Under the pieces are notes generated by a model. That model was not told the DNA's origin, searched no databases, and worked only from the letters and a program-made list of their open reading frames with translations. From Schaalia odontolytica (GTDB lineage: Bacteria > Actinomycetota > Actinomycetes > Actinomycetales > Actinomycetaceae), in NCBI RefSeq assembly GCF_024584435.1, contig NZ_CP102197.1, positions 1,860,001 through 1,924,000 on the forward strand: 64,000 nt of DNA, in the 5' to 3' direction. Shown here in pieces: positions 2 through 11,996 of this stretch (its first letter is position 1; every line of letters begins with the position of its first letter). A program made the position numbers and the translations under genes.

Positions 2-715
2 GCGACAGGCTTCGAGACCGTGTCCTCCCTGGCGGAAGCCCTCGAGGTCAACGTGTCAACCATCCGCAGGGACCTGGAGCACCTTGCCGAGGCGGGCCTC
101 GTGCGCCGCACCCACGGAGGCGCGATCCCCGTCCCGCAGGACGAGGACACCGAGGAGTTCCTGCACGATTCGCCCAACCGAGCCGAGAAGCGCGCGATCG
201 GGCCGGCGATGGCGGAGCGGATCCTGGACGGGCAGTCCGTCTTCCTCGACTCGGGGTCGACGTGCCTGGAGGTTGCGCGCGCCCTCAACGCCCGCCGCGT
301 CACCGTGGTGACGCACGACCTGCTGGTGGGCCTGGAGATTTTGAAGAAGCCTTCCCTGAACCTGGTGTTCGTGGGCGGCGAGCTGCTGCCCAACCGGACA
401 CACATGTGGGGGCCGACCGCGATCGACCAGCTGGACCACATCCGCGTGAACACCGCCGTGTTTGGGGCAAACTCGGTGATGGAGGACGGCATCTACGCCT
501 CCTCCGGCTACTCGATCGAACTGCAGCAGAAGGTCCGCTCGATCGCGTCGACCGCCTACTTCGTCGCGGACTCCACCAAGTTCGGCCGCAACGCCCTCTA
601 CAAGGTCCTCGGCATCGACGCCTTCACCGCGGGCATCACCGACTCCTACCTCTCCCCCATCTCGGCCGCCGCCTACCCGATCCCCCTCATCCGGGCCGAG
701 GTCGCGCAGGGTTAA
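2..715 (+). CDS. DeoR-family transcriptional regulator, 5' end cut by window edge
   Basis: The frame is open from base 2 with no obvious start, so the first helices of the helix-turn-helix lie outside the window. The N-terminal part keeps the DeoR recognition helix and wing (VSTIRRDLEHL followed by RRTHGGAIP). The remainder is the DeoRC sugar-phosphate sensor fold, with conserved stretches FLDSGST, VVTHD, FVGGEL, FGANSV and ADSTKFG. Members of this family repress carbohydrate catabolism operons and release DNA on binding a phosphorylated sugar. The regulated operon is not visible, so the ligand cannot be assigned. A GTG at 20 is available but would remove half the HTH, so it is probably not the true start. 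Confidence 0.9.
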   Translation, partial: ATGFETVSSLAEALEVNVSTIRRDLEHLAEAGLVRRTHGGAIPVPQDEDTEEFLHDSPNRAEKRAIGPAMAERILDGQSVFLDSGSTCLEVARALNARRVTVVTHDLLVGLEILKKPSLNLVFVGGELLPNRTHMWGPTAIDQLDHIRVNTAVFGANSVMEDGIYASSGYSIELQQKVRSIASTAYFVADSTKFGRNALYKVLGIDAFTAGITDSYLSPISAAAYPIPLIRAEVAQG

Positions 716-791: not shown

Positions 792-1679
792 TCAATGTCC
801 ATGCAGAAGCGCCATTCCTAAGGACGCAAACCCGCATACAAGTAGAGTCCCGTAGAACGGCAGAATCGCCCACCCTCTAATGACCGAGCAGTGCTCCAAG
901 AATCGGGTTCTCCTGGTTTCCCCAGAGCACTGGTAATTCAGCGAATATGGAGGAACATCGGGGTCACCAGCCGCTATACGCTCGTAGAGGTCGCGATATT
1001 TGCGCTCAGTCCTCAGGTATCCAACATCCAGGAATGCGAAAACAACCGTAGCAACGATGCCTAGGAGAGCAAGTGCGACGGAGCACTTCGTGAGTGAATA
1101 CCCATAAGCTGCCGTCACGACGGGAAGTAACCAACTTTTCGTGTTGGAAGACGATTGCGCCATACGACTGATGACGTTCTGAGCAAAGGATAGATGCTGC
1201 CGACGATCCTCTGGTGTAGCGGAGCTATAAGGAAGAAGAGTTGTTGCGCGTAACTTCGCTAGAGTCCGATCCTTCTCCTCATCAGAGAAGTCTGTCTTGG
1301 ATGGCCAAATTTCCCCAAAGGCATCGCCATCCCATCGGGGGACAATATGTACGTGGACATGAGGAACGGTCTGTGTAGCTGCCTCACCGTTGGATTGGAT
1401 GATGTTGATTCCATCCGGATGCTGGGTTTCGCGCAGGCTCATAGCCACGGCTTGGGCTGAAGTCATCACCGCGCTAACCTCGTCAGCAGTCAACGCGGTG
1501 AACTCTTCAACATGGCGGCGAGGAATCACCATACAGTGACCAAGAACAGCAGGCTCTGTTGGGAAGATAATCACGACCTTGTCGTTACGTGCAACTTCGC
1601 GAACAACAGCGTCTTCTCCGCGAACAATCGCACAAAAGGGACAGGGACAGCACTGTAAGCTAGTCACTTCCTGATACAT
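792..1679 (-). CDS. HIT-domain hydrolase fused to a C-terminal two-TM oligomerising module
   Basis: The protein has 295 aa. Residues 1-150 form a HIT (histidine triad) domain: CPFC near the N-terminus, the HCMVIPRRHV core, and the triad HVHVH at 107-111 that normally carries out nucleotidyl hydrolysis or transfer. Residues 165-295 look like the 2TM module of SLATT/RipA-type membrane proteins: RMA..S..K..W, hydrophobic segments at about 199-218 and 269-291, and the signature FLDVGYLRTERKYRDLYERI between them. The gene starts inside the last codons of the TIR gene (16-nt overlap), which indicates coupled expression. A HIT domain as the soluble part of a membrane effector is unusual. Inferred role: a nucleotide-sensing or nucleotide-cleaving membrane effector. 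The domain assignments are firm for HIT and moderate for the 2TM module. Confidence 0.8.
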   Translation of the reverse strand: MYQEVTSLQCCPCPFCAIVRGEDAVVREVARNDKVVIIFPTEPAVLGHCMVIPRRHVEEFTALTADEVSAVMTSAQAVAMSLRETQHPDGINIIQSNGEAATQTVPHVHVHIVPRWDGDAFGEIWPSKTDFSDEEKDRTLAKLRATTLLPYSSATPEDRRQHLSFAQNVISRMAQSSSNTKSWLLPVVTAAYGYSLTKCSVALALLGIVATVVFAFLDVGYLRTERKYRDLYERIAAGDPDVPPYSLNYQCSGETRRTRFLEHCSVIRGWAILPFYGTLLVCGFASLGMALLHGH

Positions 1680-2152
1680 CCTTGCCCTACCCAGTATTTC
1701 AAGTTCGACGACAGCTCATCATATGTAGCCTTAGAGTCAATTTTTCCCCAAATATCGCGCCGTGTGGGGTCGAAGATTGGAAGTCCAGGATTGTATCCTC
1801 TAAATCCGTTGATACTACAAAATGGATCTGCTCCTTCAACGTCTGTAGATCCCATTGACGAAAGTCCGTGAATACGTATTCCGAGGAGAGGTTTACGCAG
1901 GTCCCATGCTCGCTGAATCTCGTACTTCACCCATGGGCGAGAAGCAGTTTGTGCGCCGATAAGTACAACGACAGCACTCTTCCACTTCATCTGTTCGTCA
2001 ATCCAATCACGGATAGCCTCGTCACCTTTTACGCGAACCGCTTCCCACTCTTGAGCGTTGAGAAGTTTCTGCCCTTCGACACTTCCCATGTTACGGATTA
2101 ACTGCACACGGTGAACATCTCGTTCATAGTGAAAACTATAGAAAACAGCCAT
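1664..2152 (-). CDS. TIR-like (DUF1863/ThsB-type) protein
   Basis: The protein has 162 aa and starts at the ATG of MAVFYSFHYERD, after an upstream AAAGG. An upstream in-frame ATG at 2212 would add 20 residues that do not fit the family. FYSFHYERDVHRVQLIRN, VVLIGAQTASRPWVKYEIQRAW and LLGIRIHGL match the TIR-like family of Thoeris ThsB proteins. The Glu of VKYEI sits where the NADase catalytic glutamate is expected. Family members convert NAD into signalling or depleting products after phage infection. There is no SIR2 or macro ThsA next door; the only partner is the overlapping HIT-2TM gene. The defence role is inferred from family and context. Confidence 0.85.
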   Translation of the reverse strand: MAVFYSFHYERDVHRVQLIRNMGSVEGQKLLNAQEWEAVRVKGDEAIRDWIDEQMKWKSAVVVLIGAQTASRPWVKYEIQRAWDLRKPLLGIRIHGLSSMGSTDVEGADPFCSINGFRGYNPGLPIFDPTRRDIWGKIDSKATYDELSSNLKYWVGQGCIRK

Positions 2153-2328: not shown

Positions 2329-2775
2329 TCAATGGACAGCCGCCAGGTCATCCTCTTCCTTAAGAAGCAAGGGATAGTCAGAGTGCAGTGTCAGTTGTTC
2401 AGCCGACACAATAAATGGGTTATCGTCGCTGCCTTCAACCTCAATGTAGACCATGCCATCGATGACCTCGCCAGCACGGAACCGATCACCAACACGCAGG
2501 ACAAGACCACCGCCACACTCAACGTCAGCAGAGACCGTATGTACCTCAGAAAGCTCATGAGCATCGGATTGGACAAATCTTGAACGCACCCATTCAGTAA
2601 CCTTCGCCTCGACAGTCTGACGATCACCCATTTTGACGCCACAATTAACACCAAAACGGTAGGCAAAACCCGCGAGAGCTGCAACACAGCCAACAGCAAT
2701 TACACCGGCTTTAGCTGGCCCTCCTATTGCCTTGATTCCCGTAGTGACCATCTGATATGCCCCGAGATTACTCAT
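2329..2775 (-). CDS. Small protein with one N-terminal TM segment, function unknown
   Basis: The protein has 148 aa. The start at 2775 was chosen because AGGG lies 5 nt upstream and because the 25 extra residues of the longer frame do not look like protein. One hydrophobic helix (about residues 19-40, VIAVGCVAALAGFAYRFG) is followed by a charged soluble domain with alternating beta-like segments (GGGLVLRVGDRF, DGMVYIEVEG, PFIVSAEQL). It is encoded about 180 bp upstream of the TIR/HIT pair on the same strand, so it may belong to that unit. I recognise no family. Confidence 0.55.
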   Translation of the reverse strand: MSNLGAYQMVTTGIKAIGGPAKAGVIAVGCVAALAGFAYRFGVNCGVKMGDRQTVEAKVTEWVRSRFVQSDAHELSEVHTVSADVECGGGLVLRVGDRFRAGEVIDGMVYIEVEGSDDNPFIVSAEQLTLHSDYPLLLKEEDDLAAVH

Positions 2776-2898: not shown

Positions 2899-4201
2899 GG
2901 CTCTTGCGAGTCGAGTGTGGGTGGTCGGGTGTTGGTCGGGGGGTTGCGGGTAGAGGTCGAGGTCCTTGATGATGAGCGGACTTCTACCCCCGCTGTCGTC
3001 AAGGACCTCGGGCGGTGTCTCACCCTACCTGCTGCTGCTCTGTGTCGCTTGATCGTTGTGATCTGCTCGTCGACTTGGAGGGCTTCCATCTGATGAGTGT
3101 AGCTCGCACCCCAGGGGCTCTGGTGCTCGATGTTGAGTCATGCAACCAGCTGGTTGGCTGCCCTGGGTGTGGGGTGATCGCACAAGGCCCCGGGCGCGTT
3201 TGGGTGTTCGGGCGATCCGCTGGGCGATCCGACAGTTGCGCTTCGAGGGAGCCACTATCTCGGGGCTGGCCCGCCAGTTAGGAACCACGTGGAATACCGT
3301 GTGGTCCCATATCAAGCCGTGCCTGCAAGCCGCATCTGATGACCCCGCCCCCGCCCGTTTCGCAGGGGTGCGGGTGCTGGGGGTCGGTGAGCACGTGTGG
3401 CATCACCAGGACCGACGCCTCCGGGGCCCGTGTGAGCTCACCGGCATCGTCGACCTGACACGTGGGAAGGATCATCCTACGGCCCGCTTGTTGGCTCTGG
3501 TCCCAGGAAGGTCTGGCACCGCGCATGAGAACTGGCTGGCCGAGCGCGGCGAAGACTTCCGTGCGGGGTGCAAATCGCGACGCTAAACCCCTTCCAGGGA
3601 CAGCAAGAACGCCATCGACGATCAACTCCAAGACGCCACCAGCGTCCTGGATGCCTTCCATATCGTCAAGCTCGCCGGTGATGCCCCAGGTGAGGTACGC
3701 CGTCGCATCCAGCAAGACGCCCTGGGTAACCGCGGACGCAAGGGCGATCCCCTCTACCAAATCCAGCTTCTCCTGCGCGCCTCACATACGCAGGCTCACC
3801 CCATGTCAACAAGAACGACTGTGAGGCCTTCGTGGCAGATGAGGCGCATATCAGTGTCGAAGTCGCCTACCACTGCGCCCAACAAGTCCGAGACCTCTTC
3901 CATCAAGCCACACCCACCCAAGGCCAACGCCTGGCCGCTCACCTCATCGAGCGCCTACCAGCCTGTCCCATCCCCAAAATCGCCCGACTGGGTCGAACCC
4001 TACGCAAATGGAAGGACGTATTCTTGGCCTACTTCGACACAGCCGGAGCTAACAACGCACTCCACCGAAGCCATCGACGGAATCATCGAACTAGGAAGAC
4101 ACACCGCCAAAGGCTACCGCAACCCCACCAACCACCAACTCCGAATGCTCCTCATCGCAGGAGGCCTAGACGCCGCCACCCACACCCAACTATCAAGAAC
4201 C
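2899..4201 (+). mobile_element. Degenerate ISL3-family element, copy 1 (1303 bp)
   Basis: The ends are GGCTCTTGCGAGTCGAGTG at 2899 and the complement of GGTTCTTGATAGTTGGGTG at 4201, imperfect inverted repeats of the ISL3 GGNTCTT type. An inverted copy of the same length lies at 10569-11871, and all overlapping translations of the two copies are identical. I see no 8-bp direct repeat at this copy (flanks CCATTATC and GGTAAACC). Confidence 0.85.
3093..4201 (+). pseudogene. ISL3 transposase remnant with several frameshifts
   Basis: Pieces of one transposase appear in successive frames. The zinc-binding start (VGCPGCGVIAQG) is near 3100-3180. The HTH and start of the catalytic domain (GLARQLGTTWNTVWSHIK, GVGEHVWHHQD, GIVDLTRGKDHP) run to a TAA at 3586. 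DAFHIVKLAGDA and RRRIQQ are near 3650-3720. VFLAYFDTAGANN is near 4020. STEAIDGIIELGRHTAKGYRNPTNHQLR is near 4065-4140. At least four frame changes separate these pieces, so no active transposase can be made from this copy. Confidence 0.85.
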
Positions 4202-5466: not shown

Positions 5467-6117
5467 GTGAGCGAGCAGGTGCAACTAGTTAAGTCGAAGC
5501 AGCGTGTGGTCGACCATGGTGAGGTCTTCACCCCGACATGGATGGTGAACGACATGCTCGACCTGGTCAAGGATGAGTCGGAGCGTATCGATGCTCGCGT
5601 CCTGGAGCCGGCCTGTGGTGAGGGTGCCTTCCTCCAGGAGATCCTGCGCCGCAAGCTCACAACCGTACAAGCCCGATACAGCAGGAACGACTTCGAGCGC
5701 CGCCACTACGCGCTCCTGGCCCTCATGAACACCTACGGTATCGAGCTGCTTGCCGACAATGCTAAGATCTGCCGCACCAATCTCCTCGCTATCTTCACGG
5801 ATTTCATTGGCGAGGATCTTGACGGCACATGGGCAGCGGCGGCTCGCGCAGTTCTGGCGATCAACATCGTGCAGGCTGATGCTCTAACTATGACGATCCC
5901 CAGCGGTGAGCCCCTGACCTTTGCCGAGTGGGGCTACCTTGGGGCGGGCAAGTTCCAACGGCGAGACTTCCAGTATCAGGACCTCACCAAGAGAGCAGCC
6001 TTTGGCGAAGATACCCTCTTCGGCTCCATGGATATGGCCGAGATCTTCACCCCAGATACCTCTTTTCCTCCGATGACTGTGGCAGAGATTGCCGCTAGAG
6101 GAGCGCAGCCAGCATGA
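5467..6117 (+). CDS. Methylase-like protein: SAM-binding half without the NPPY catalytic motif
   Basis: The protein has 216 aa and a GTG start directly after GAGGAGGAG. The N-terminus GEVFTPTWMVNDMLDLV is the signature preceding motif I in N6-adenine methylases, and motif I itself is seen as VLEPACGEGAFL at 45-56. It continues to a motif II-like YGIELLADN, but the protein ends without D/N-PP-Y/F. Its stop overlaps the next start (ATGA). It may be a regulatory or complementing subunit of the following methyltransferase, or the shortened product of an old gene duplication. Coupled translation argues that it is still used. Confidence 0.7.
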   Translation: MSEQVQLVKSKQRVVDHGEVFTPTWMVNDMLDLVKDESERIDARVLEPACGEGAFLQEILRRKLTTVQARYSRNDFERRHYALLALMNTYGIELLADNAKICRTNLLAIFTDFIGEDLDGTWAAAARAVLAINIVQADALTMTIPSGEPLTFAEWGYLGAGKFQRRDFQYQDLTKRAAFGEDTLFGSMDMAEIFTPDTSFPPMTVAEIAARGAQPA

Positions 6118-7744
6118 GTGCGTTGAACCTCCTGTTGAACAAGCACAACCCAGATGTGCTCACCTGCATCGCGAACCTTTCAAACGATGAAGTGTTCACA
6201 CCTCCAGAAATGGCTGCAGCCATGCTTGACCTCGCAACCGAAGCGTGGGCACGTGACCACAATGGAGAGAACCTGTGGGCAAACCCGAACGCCCGGGTGC
6301 TGGATCCCTTCGTGAAAACTGGAGTCTTCTTGCGGGAGGCGGCTCGCCGCTTCAGTGAAGGACTCGTAGCAGTTATTCCTGACCCCCAGGAGCGGGTCAA
6401 CCACATCCTCACCAAGCAGGTTTACGGGATAGCTATCACTGAGCTCACCGCCCTTATGGCCCGCCGCAGCATCTACTGCTCAAAGTACGCCAACAGTGAG
6501 CACTCCATCTGCACGGCCTTCGACACCCCAGAAGGCAACATCTGGTTTGAACGCACCGAGCACACCTGGGATGACAAAACCGGCACACGCGAGAGCCGCG
6601 TTGACCCCCTCTCCGGTGAGGAAATCTTTATCCGCACTGGCCGGCGCTGCTCCTACTGCGGGGCTGGGGAAGAAGACTACGGGCGCGATGAAGATCTCGA
6701 GACCCACGCCTACGCCTTCATCCACACAAACAATATTAAGCAACGAATCACCGAAATATTTGGAGCCAACATGCACTTCGACCTGGTCATCGGAAACCCG
6801 CCATACCAGCTGTCTGACGGAGGTCATAACGCATCGGCTAGTCCGATCTACCAGTTATTCGTGAAATCGGCTAAGAACCTTGATCCGGAACACATGGTCA
6901 TGGTAACCCCGTCACGATGGTTTGCTGGAGGTAAAGGCCTCACTGACTACCGTGATGAGATGCTCCACGACCACCGATTGCGTGCCCTAGTCGACTACCC
7001 CAAGCTTTACGAGGCTTTCCCCGGCGTGAAGATCCGAGGTGGGGTCTCATACTTCCTGTGGTCGCGTGCTTATGACGGACCATGCCGCATCCAAACCATG
7101 TGGGACGGATACCCCACGGGGCCTGCCATCGAGCGCTACCTAGATGAATTCGATGTTTTGGTCCGGCAGAACGAAGCGGTCCCAATTCTCAAGAAAGTTC
7201 TGGCCTGTTGTGAGGAGTCAATTGAGGGGCAGATTTCATCACGTAAGCCATTCGGCTTTGCAACAAACTACAAGGGAGAATCCCGAGCATCACAACTTGA
7301 AGATCCGGTGAAACTCTTCGCAAATCAGGAAGTGCGCTTCACCGATCGTACTGAAATCCAAGTCAATCCAGAGTGGGTGGATCGATGGAAGGTGCTCATG
7401 ACGCGTGTCCAGGGCACCAGCGCAGCAGTGGAGACTATGTTTCTGAGCCGCCCGATTATTGCTGAGCCCGGAACCGCATGTACCGAGACGTACATAGTCG
7501 CAGGAAGCTTCGACTCACTCGAGGAAGCAGAGTCACTTGCGAGTTACCTGCGAACCCGCTTCGTCCGCTTCCTTGTATCACTAAGGAAATCCACGCAGGA
7601 CGCGCCACGCCATGTCTATTCTTTTGTCCCCGTACAGTCCTGGGACCATGAGTGGACCGACGAGGAGTTGTACGCCAAGTACGGGCTCACTGATGAGGAG
7701 ATCGCGTATATTGAGTCCATCGTGCGCCCGATGGAGGATGAGTG

Positions 7745-7745
<1 letters not shown>
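6114..7745 (+). CDS. Eco57I-type N6-adenine DNA methyltransferase
   Basis: The protein has 543 aa. NDEVFTPPEMAAAMLDLA leads into motif I (VLDPFVKTGVFL, 62-73). YGIAITELTALMARRS follows, and the catalytic motif is FDLVIGNPPY (NPPY at 228-231). A CxxC pair (C179, C182) with a downstream histidine suggests a small metal site inserted before the catalytic motif. The C-terminal half, with VTPSRWFAGG and DYPKLYEAFPGVKIRGGVSYFLW, resembles the specificity/target-recognition part of Eco57I-like enzymes. It is translationally coupled on both sides and probably protects host DNA against the nuclease-helicase encoded next. Confidence 0.85.
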
Positions 7746-10321
<2,576 letters not shown>

Positions 10322-10322
10322 C

Positions 10323-10577
10323 GCTATCTCTATCGTCCTCTCCGCCAGCGCGCTCATCATTGCTATCTGGGCTGCTGTCGAGTCGCACCGAGCGAACACC
10401 CGGTCGGCAGAAGCCAACCGAATCACTGAACGTGCCAACACTCTCGCAGAGCAATCGAACGAGCACGCTGACAAAGCGAACCTCATCAGTGTACAGGTGC
10501 TTGAACTAACAGAACGAGAAGCGCTCGTACCCCTGAGCGATTTGATGCAGCTAGGCAAGCACAAATGGGGTTCTTGA
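10323..10577 (+). pseudogene. Headless fragment of a membrane-anchored coiled-coil protein, cut by the ISL3 copy
   Basis: Immediately after the helicase stop, a GC3-biased frame encodes a TM helix (AISIVLSASALIIAIWAAVES) and a polar coiled coil (HRANTRSAEANRITERANTLAEQSNEHADK). It ends inside the ISL3 end at 10569. No start codon is available, because a TGA lies 12 bases upstream in frame. Both ends are therefore missing or rearranged. The architecture is common in small anchored proteins of unknown function near defence genes. Confidence 0.5.
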
Positions 10578-11779
10578 TAGTTGGGTGTGGGTGGCGGCGT
10601 CTAGGCCTCCTGCGATGAGGAGCATTCGGAGTTGGTGGTTGGTGGGGTTGCGGTAGCCTTTGGCGGTGTGTCTTCCTAGTTCGATGATTCCGTCGATGGC
10701 TTCGGTGGAGTGCGTTGTTAGCTCCGGCTGTGTCGAAGTAGGCCAAGAATACGTCCTTCCATTTGCGTAGGGTTCGACCCAGTCGGGCGATTTTGGGGAT
10801 GGGACAGGCTGGTAGGCGCTCGATGAGGTGAGCGGCCAGGCGTTGGCCTTGGGTGGGTGTGGCTTGATGGAAGAGGTCTCGGACTTGTTGGGCGCAGTGG
10901 TAGGCGACTTCGACACTGATATGCGCCTCATCTGCCACGAAGGCCTCACAGTCGTTCTTGTTGACATGGGGTGAGCCTGCGTATGTGAGGCGCGCAGGAG
11001 AAGCTGGATTTGGTAGAGGGGATCGCCCTTGCGTCCGCGGTTACCCAGGGCGTCTTGCTGGATGCGACGGCGTACCTCACCTGGGGCATCACCGGCGAGC
11101 TTGACGATATGGAAGGCATCCAGGACGCTGGTGGCGTCTTGGAGTTGATCGTCGATGGCGTTCTTGCTGTCCCTGGAAGGGGTTTAGCGTCGCGATTTGC
11201 ACCCCGCACGGAAGTCTTCGCCGCGCTCGGCCAGCCAGTTCTCATGCGCGGTGCCAGACCTTCCTGGGACCAGAGCCAACAAGCGGGCCGTAGGATGATC
11301 CTTCCCACGTGTCAGGTCGACGATGCCGGTGAGCTCACACGGGCCCCGGAGGCGTCGGTCCTGGTGATGCCACACGTGCTCACCGACCCCCAGCACCCGC
11401 ACCCCTGCGAAACGGGCGGGGGCGGGGTCATCAGATGCGGCTTGCAGGCACGGCTTGATATGGGACCACACGGTATTCCACGTGGTTCCTAACTGGCGGG
11501 CCAGCCCCGAGATAGTGGCTCCCTCGAAGCGCAACTGTCGGATCGCCCAGCGGATCGCCCGAACACCCAAACGCGCCCGGGGCCTTGTGCGATCACCCCA
11601 CACCCAGGGCAGCCAACCAGCTGGTTGCATGACTCAACATCGAGCACCAGAGCCCCTGGGGTGCGAGCTACACTCATCAGATGGAAGCCCTCCAAGTCGA
11701 CGAGCAGATCACAACGATCAAGCGACACAGAGCAGCAGCAGGTAGGGTGAGACACCGCCCGAGGTCCTTGACGACAGCG
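10569..11779 (-). pseudogene. ISL3 transposase remnant (copy 2)
   Basis: The broken reading frames are the same as in copy 1, now on the minus strand (for example the HTH/catalytic fragment at 11184-11630 and the C-terminal STEAIDGIIELGRH fragment near 10630-10710). At least four frame changes prevent expression. Confidence 0.8.
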
Positions 11780-11871
11780 GGGGTAGAAGTCCGCTCATCA
11801 TCAAGGACCTCGACCTCTACCCGCAACCCCCCGACCAACACCCGACCACCCACACTCGACTCGCAAGAGCC
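10569..11871 (-). mobile_element. Degenerate ISL3-family element, copy 2, inverted relative to copy 1
   Basis: The length (1303 bp), end sequences and frameshifts match the copy at 2899-4201, and every overlapping translation is identical. The two copies therefore enclose 6.4 kb containing the whole restriction-modification cluster. The flanks ACAAATGG and GATAATCA do not form a direct repeat. Confidence 0.85.
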
Positions 11872-11996
11872 GATAATCACCACATTCGAGCGCTTCGACT
11901 ACGGACTCGCGGACATGATGGCATCAAGTCCCTGCTTCAATCCGGCTATCGCCAGGCAATCCAGCCATTCAGCAGGCCGACCAAGCCGCATGTGAC

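Follow-up and report, generated by a model that had tools for sequence, protein, structure and literature searches.

Organization of the Locus

The window, a stretch of 64,000 nucleotides from Schaalia odontolytica, belongs to a genome of 2.39 Mb held on a single contig and carries near its beginning two minus-strand genes, a TIR gene of the ThsB type followed by a frame that joins a HIT domain to a membrane-helix module (Table 1). This overlapping pair, first proposed in a sequence-only reading of the same DNA, is confirmed as real. The stop codon of the TIR gene does lie within the start of the fusion gene as then described, but that start is more likely to be the GTG at 1667, with a 4-nt GTGA overlap, than the ATG at 1679, because 4 nt is the commonest overlap among relatives and a sister genome (L104) has ATGA at the corresponding position. 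Residues of the fusion are counted throughout from the ATG at 1679.

Table 1. Features of the TIR/HIT-membrane locus, in positions of the window.
Feature	Position	Strand	Basis or remark
DeoR regulator, 3' end bordering the variable site	20..715	plus	Pfam DeoRC
HIT-membrane fusion, 295 aa from ATG 1679 (291 aa from GTG 1667)	792..1679	minus	
Membrane-helix module (PDC-M50A), residues 156-293, predicted effector	801..1214	minus	PDLC04686, 6.1e-20
HIT domain, residues 11-150	1230..1649	minus	
Histidine triad HVHVH, His107-109-111	1347..1361	minus	88/88 aligned fusions
GTGA, TIR stop overlapping the likely fusion start	1664..1667	minus	16 nt (1664-1679) with the ATG start
TIR gene, ThsB type, 162 aa, ATG at 2152	1664..2152	minus	Pfam PF08937 and PADLOC profiles
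Codon of the predicted catalytic Glu78, VKYEI motif of the TIR	1919..1921	minus	Glu in 61/61 aligned rows
Small protein, one hydrophobic stretch, outside the unit	2329..2775 (to 2850 in a longer frame)	minus	

The TIR frame, scored from a longer start at 2212, matches the Pfam model ThsB_TIR (2.9e-25, over the cut-off), the PADLOC profile of ThsB (PDLC00433; 1.6e-49), and the PADLOC profile PDC-M50B (PDLC04688; 1.6e-43), and its closest solved relative is PDB 8wcf (1.2e-31), named 'Molecular chaperone Tir', for which no relevant paper turned up in the open-licence PMC literature. Glu78 lies inside the VKYEI motif and is kept in every row of the TIR alignment, in which the window is counted twice; the earlier assignment to the ThsB type with this motif is borne out, and the protein is predicted to be an NAD-using signal maker.

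The PADLOC profiles divide the fusion cleanly, with ThsC over residues 12-116 (2.8e-20, from a profile uncalibrated against ordinary HITs) and PDC-M50A over residues 158-282. The HVHVH triad reported from the letters stands as well, since Pfam HIT scores 3e-23 on residues 29-115, within which PHVHVHIVPR is found, and both marks of the HIT superfamily, the HxHxH triad and the HIT fold, are present. Besides the three triad histidines, Cys13 and Cys16 are found in 87 of the 88 aligned fusions, the remaining row having a gap. The structure model of the HIT half fits Zn-HIT, Ap4A phosphorylase and Fhit best (3o0m, 3ano, 2fit), but the aligned chains of these proteins, at 126-158 residues, have no space for the membrane module that the window fusion contains.

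The description of this module as a two-TM element agrees with two Kyte-Doolittle hydrophobic segments, at 193-224 and 264-293, but it is approximate, as confident structure models (pLDDT 93.7) show long helices at 156-198 and 201-236 and a third at 273-293. Six residues, His162, Gln167, Arg172, Asp218, Leu222 and Glu225, are invariant in all 49 aligned modules, of which 32 are separate proteins, and are located ahead of the first hydrophobic helix and where the second one ends; among the 88 aligned fusions, His162 and Glu225 are each kept in 87. The module shows neither a Pfam domain nor a close fold among solved structures, and its profile, searched against solved sequences, recovered HIT proteins only, through the HIT parts of the alignment. 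For a module encoded as a gene of its own, in a Planctomycetaceae locus, 1215 relatives were found, and the 120 listed show no Pfam domain. Kinship with the 8xMP octameric membrane proteins is not supported: PF24838 has no match in the window protein, hhalign gives a probability of 2.3% against one 8xMP protein, and that protein has no solved sequence relative at E <= 0.01.

A Variable Site Rich in Defence Genes

The site downstream of deoR is variable within the genus and rich in defence genes. Similarity to the genomes G697, G692 and G675 stops at 715, 744 and 714, respectively, while the sister genome G689 shares positions 1-2892 of the window at 90.6% identity and then continues with a type ISP restriction gene. 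A type I system is found at this site in G697, G692 has restriction genes, a DNA methylase and a different TIR-membrane pair there, and G675 a different gene; type I or III restriction genes occupy the site in sister genomes, and the Eco57I-type methylase gene of the window lies 4 kb from the TIR-HIT unit. The module is found in 3 of 35 genomes of the genus and in 6 of 394 genomes of the class (one match weak). Within the genus, G664 holds an orphan module that resembles that of Schaalia canis (L103, L059).

The small protein upstream of the TIR gene had been put forward as a third part of the unit. Its frame exists, but G675 retains its DNA without the TIR and HIT genes, which rules the proposal out; among the loci examined, its presence next to the unit is limited to the window genome and G689.

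Two further arrangements were seen around this site. A split Eco57I-type methylase and ResIII helicase system at window positions 5467-10321 is flanked by inverted transposase-like copies, at about 2.9-4.4 kb and 10.5-12.0 kb, with identical frames at 3278-3760 (minus) and 11010-11492 (plus), so that the whole resembles a composite transposon. The pair at the deoR site of G692 (L141:3496-4355, minus) is a small ThsB-type TIR overlapping an 8xMP octameric membrane protein (PF24838), a membrane protein of a different family from the module.

Linkage with TIR Genes across Genomes

Protein searches yielded 323 relatives of the fusion, 120 of them listed. In 84,980 species genomes, an alignment profile detected 64 loci, where a scan with the single protein as query gave none. 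Together with eight others (L001, which is the window, L004, L005, L097, L098, L099, L103 and L104) they make up a set of 72 loci, in which L100 and L101 are left aside as repeats of L001 and L004, and L102 as a 5e-4 match. The HIT and membrane parts are fused in 29 loci, split on the same strand in 21 and split on opposite strands in 10, and the remaining 12 are devoid of HIT. A ThsB-type TIR lies within 3.5 kb in 54 of the 72 loci, counting the weak match of L005 (1e-5), and by layout in 25/29 fused, 15/21 split same-strand, 9/10 split opposite-strand and 5/12 HIT-less loci.

These counts, which bear out the TIR linkage expected of homologues of the fusion, can be set against 29 ordinary HIT genes (L002, L003 and L006-L032), none of which has a ThsB-type TIR nearby; the sequence covered around them reaches at most 1.5 kb in either direction, less than the 3.5-kb limit, yet nearly every true TIR-HIT pair touches. 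Specifically, where both genes lie on one strand, TIR and HIT overlap in 47 of 50 cases and are at most 4 nt apart in the other three, when each is called at E<1e-10 and the HIT start is placed at the codon nearest the CxFC motif. Outside this count are L097 and L108, whose two genes lie on opposite strands, and L005, whose TIR match is weak; it takes in every other classified locus having both genes, adds three plasmids, and includes seven loci with the membrane gene on the opposite strand. HIT genes are nearly universal, with matches in 284 of 296 genomes, so an ordinary HIT protein could stand beside a TIR gene by chance; 54/72 loci against 0/29 controls, together with contact in 50/50 pairs, make such a coincidence extremely improbable. 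The pattern suggests that HIT is tied to the expression of the TIR and often also to the effector.

The 18 loci without a ThsB-type call include seven with another TIR-type protein close by, namely a divergent AAA-TIR gene in three Promicromonospora fusions (L049, L051, L053), a TIR gene and a SLOG gene (L065), an LRR-Roc-COR-TIR gene overlapping the membrane gene (L091), a TIR_2-like gene slightly below the Pfam cut-off (L094) and a ThsB-type gene recognised by PADLOC PDLC00430 at 3.4e-76 (L092). With these, a TIR-type protein is present in 8 of the 12 HIT-less loci. In L091, from Aureivirga, the overlapping pair occupies 7956-11916, and its LRR-Roc-COR-TIR protein has 1174 aa. In Streptomyces fuscigenes, a second set (L056:9780-13176) lies 1 kb from the first and consists of module and HIT, with an AAA-TIR protein on the opposite strand.

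The variety of TIR partners bears on the possibility that no diffusible signal is involved, and that the TIR either depletes NAD or contacts the membrane protein while HIT clears toxic adenylated by-products and thereby protects the host. A module without a Pfam domain or a close solved fold is compatible with this scheme, but its occurrence next to ThsB, AAA-TIR and LRR-Roc-COR-TIR proteins is easier to reconcile with a common small molecule than with a common contact surface, and the scheme is regarded as improbable.

No TIR gene was found near 11 of the 72 loci (L052, L059, L072, L080, L082, L083, L084, L095, L096, L098 and L103). L072 breaks off at a contig end 335 nt upstream, L082 has 1.1 kb of downstream sequence, the flanks of L098 and L103 span 1.5 kb, L096 looks decayed, and L059 and L103 look like one orphan, a remnant. 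In two Actinoplanes genomes (L083, L084), HIT and membrane genes are present and no TIR was detected in 8-kb flanks on both sides. The missing TIR of L052 and L095 is without explanation; Millisia brevis, the source of L052, carries a ThsB-type TIR at a second system, L064. Across ten genomes with such exceptional loci, a TIR_2 match occurs somewhere in nine and a ThsB_TIR match in eight, which by itself establishes no link.

Plasmids, Phages and the Accessory Nature of HIT

The fusion occurs in seven plasmid records, six of them with coverage of at least 80%; it adjoins DISARM drmD on a Rhodococcus ruber plasmid and a GIY-YIG/Eco57I pair on a Mycobacteroides chelonae plasmid. A search of 72,556 plasmid records with the module of a Vibrio relative matched 132 of them, and 16 rows spread over this ranking were inspected. 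By raw count, a TIR gene lies beside the module or one gene off in 15 of the 16 and in 12 of the 13 rows devoid of HIT. In the sixteenth row (L113), the module frame is open, with an IS30 gene abutting it at one end and transposase-like frames at the opposite end; no TIR was seen there. HIT is found in three rows, two actinobacterial fusions (L105, L121) and a Haladaptatus plasmid (L108:1410-2950) on which HIT, TIR and module are encoded by three genes, so that an archaeon has the complete set. Near copies occur among the enterobacterial rows L110, L111, L112, L117, L118 and L119 and between L114 and L120, and the rows reduce to about 10 kinds, nine with a TIR. In addition, three Vibrio phage records hold the module, with a ThsB-annotated neighbour in the one examined. 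The distribution of the module thus takes in conjugative plasmids of Enterobacteria, archaeal plasmids and small Vibrio phages.

The small Vibrio phage examined (Vinavirales; L127:1347-2635) has the ThsB-noted gene and the module one gene away from a putative integrase. Relatives of HIT were also found in 53 phage records, many with actinobacterial hosts (for example L124 and L126). The idea that they are stolen off-switches was rejected, as the five of the 53 records that were placed cluster with ordinary HITs, away from those of the system.

The constant partner of the TIR appears to be the membrane module rather than HIT, and since this pairing holds while HIT is present in 3 of 16 plasmid rows, HIT looks like an accessory, which some lineages have joined to the module and others encode separately. 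Because well-supported branches force at least two changes of the 'fused' label on the HIT tree, which has 147 columns only, and at least four on the TIR tree, fusion or separation occurred more than once; the trees leave out the second HIT of L056, the second TIR of L046, a pair of ordinary HITs whose long branch was an artefact, and the rows from phages along with further long rows. Altogether, these gene arrangements argue that TIR and membrane module probably form the working core.

This arrangement bears on two other roles for HIT. In the first, which the sequence-only reading favoured, HIT is a ligand sensor that binds the nucleotide made by the TIR and gates the membrane module as a pore. 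Fusion to the module in 29 of 72 loci and the resemblance of the HIT half to HIT structures that bind adenine nucleotides agree with it, but 13 of 16 plasmid rows lack HIT, HIT and membrane genes lie on opposite strands in 10 loci, and a fully invariant catalytic triad is unnecessary for a pure sensor. This role is less well supported because the module is paired with TIR-type proteins in loci without HIT, both in genomes and on plasmids, and we consider it unlikely. In the second, HIT matures the TIR product into the ligand read by the membrane module; this would account for the contact of HIT and TIR genes in 50/50 pairs and for invariant catalytic residues in HIT, but HIT-less TIR-membrane pairs are common, and the ligand there needs no adjacent HIT gene, which leaves this role slightly less probable still than that of a sensor.

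Relationship to Thoeris and Other Known Systems

The 'type II' Thoeris of PADLOC differs from the TM-macro 'type II' of other authors, and other Thoeris types have a caspase-like effector. With respect to the features of Thoeris, the window genome has a ThsB-type TIR with its conserved Glu but shows no ThsA with a SIR2_2 or macro domain; because a genome-wide search at E <= 0.001 gave no match to SIR2_2 (PF13289) or Macro (PF01661), the two ThsA types probed appear to be absent. The PADLOC type II, which expects a canonical ThsA beside ThsB, differs from the window genome in this respect. The label 'Thoeris-like' is nonetheless fair for a pair that is TIR-linked, patchy in distribution, plasmid-borne and near other defence genes.

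The earlier statement that no HIT part was known in Thoeris is out of date. According to the 2021 PADLOC paper, a HIT gene named ThsC occurs in 2.4% of Thoeris systems, and its authors guessed at a role in messenger formation or degradation, perhaps as an off-switch (PMC8565338). The window resembles PADLOC 'Thoeris type II' with ThsC in having a HIT gene beside ThsB, but there, ThsC is an extra gene near canonical Thoeris pairs (167 systems), whereas the HIT of the window is fused to the membrane module (PMC8565338). The candidate system PDC-M50 of PADLOC-DB 2.0.0, made of a membrane protein A and a TIR protein B, is matched by both the module and the TIR gene of the window, yet its A profiles, at 130-159 positions, cover the membrane part only, and the window protein has HIT in front. 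PDC-M50 was not found named in the text of any paper in the open-licence PMC literature.

Two other systems combine TIR and membrane proteins. Thoeris with TM-macro ThsA likewise has a ThsB-type TIR with a membrane effector, but that effector binds its nucleotide by a macro domain, none of which was found here, and the membrane parts are compared by description only (PMC11204291). The P2-like phage AC1 has a TIR with small membrane proteins, which its authors showed to protect E. coli, but its system is one of three genes, with no HIT seen in the part of the source available, and its membrane proteins are again compared with the module by description only (PMC9122126). Nothing relevant on HIT was found in the accessible part of PMC9503650.

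A HIT gene beside ThsB is therefore published and the TIR-membrane pair is a PADLOC-DB candidate. What appears to be new is the HIT-module fusion and the view of ThsC and PDC-M50 as one system with an optional HIT, as our searches found neither in print among the matches listed from the open-licence PMC literature, in which no paper treating Thoeris, the HIT domain and TIR together was found.

A Possible Self-Terminating Alarm

The reading we prefer, with a probability of roughly 0.45, is that the TIR/HIT-membrane unit may act as a Thoeris-like anti-phage alarm in which HIT cleaves the nucleotide and ends the response. Specifically, phage infection would lead the TIR to produce a nucleotide of the ADP-ribose type, to which the membrane module would react by damaging or depolarising the membrane of the host cell; cleavage of the nucleotide by the fused HIT domain would then terminate the response. 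The evidence consists of the gene overlap, the recurrent TIR-membrane pairing, an optional and separable HIT, and invariant predicted catalytic residues in both TIR and HIT. We further infer that the TIR product is a diffusible signal and that the module, whose invariant residues are placed at or close to the ends of the predicted hydrophobic helices, binds it directly. The module would then harm the membrane, and HIT would destroy the signal as opposed to reading or making it.

The function of HIT as an off-switch that would destroy the signal has, in our estimate, somewhat less than an even chance of being correct. The cleavage chemistry is plausible, as HIT enzymes act on adenine nucleotides at the alpha-phosphate and AMP is set free, and to silence an ADP-ribose-type alarm an enzyme would have to cleave an adenine dinucleotide at its pyrophosphate. 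Ring nucleases occur fused to CRISPR effectors and, by analogy, an effector that carries its own signal-destroying enzyme would have a built-in timer. Conversely, the invariant histidine triad falls short of proving hydrolysis, and for signal removal alone the fusion to an effector is a non-obvious arrangement.

A broader proposal is more tentative than the off-switch itself: bare membrane-helix effectors with no recognised ligand-binding domain may serve TIR alarms of both bacteria and archaea, and the repeated HIT fusion of Actinomycetota may be a self-terminating effector, which would make it the first known case of a HIT enzyme with an immune nucleotide as its substrate. In any case, the separate PADLOC entries for the ThsC HIT and PDC-M50 are joined here in one gene and look like one system, so that the role of the HIT gene near ThsB becomes directly testable. 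The finding also points to an effector of TIR signals on enterobacterial conjugative plasmids, archaeal plasmids and small Vibrio phages. To our knowledge, no off-switch for a bacterial TIR alarm has been described and, if HIT removes the signal, this would be one way of switching off such an alarm.
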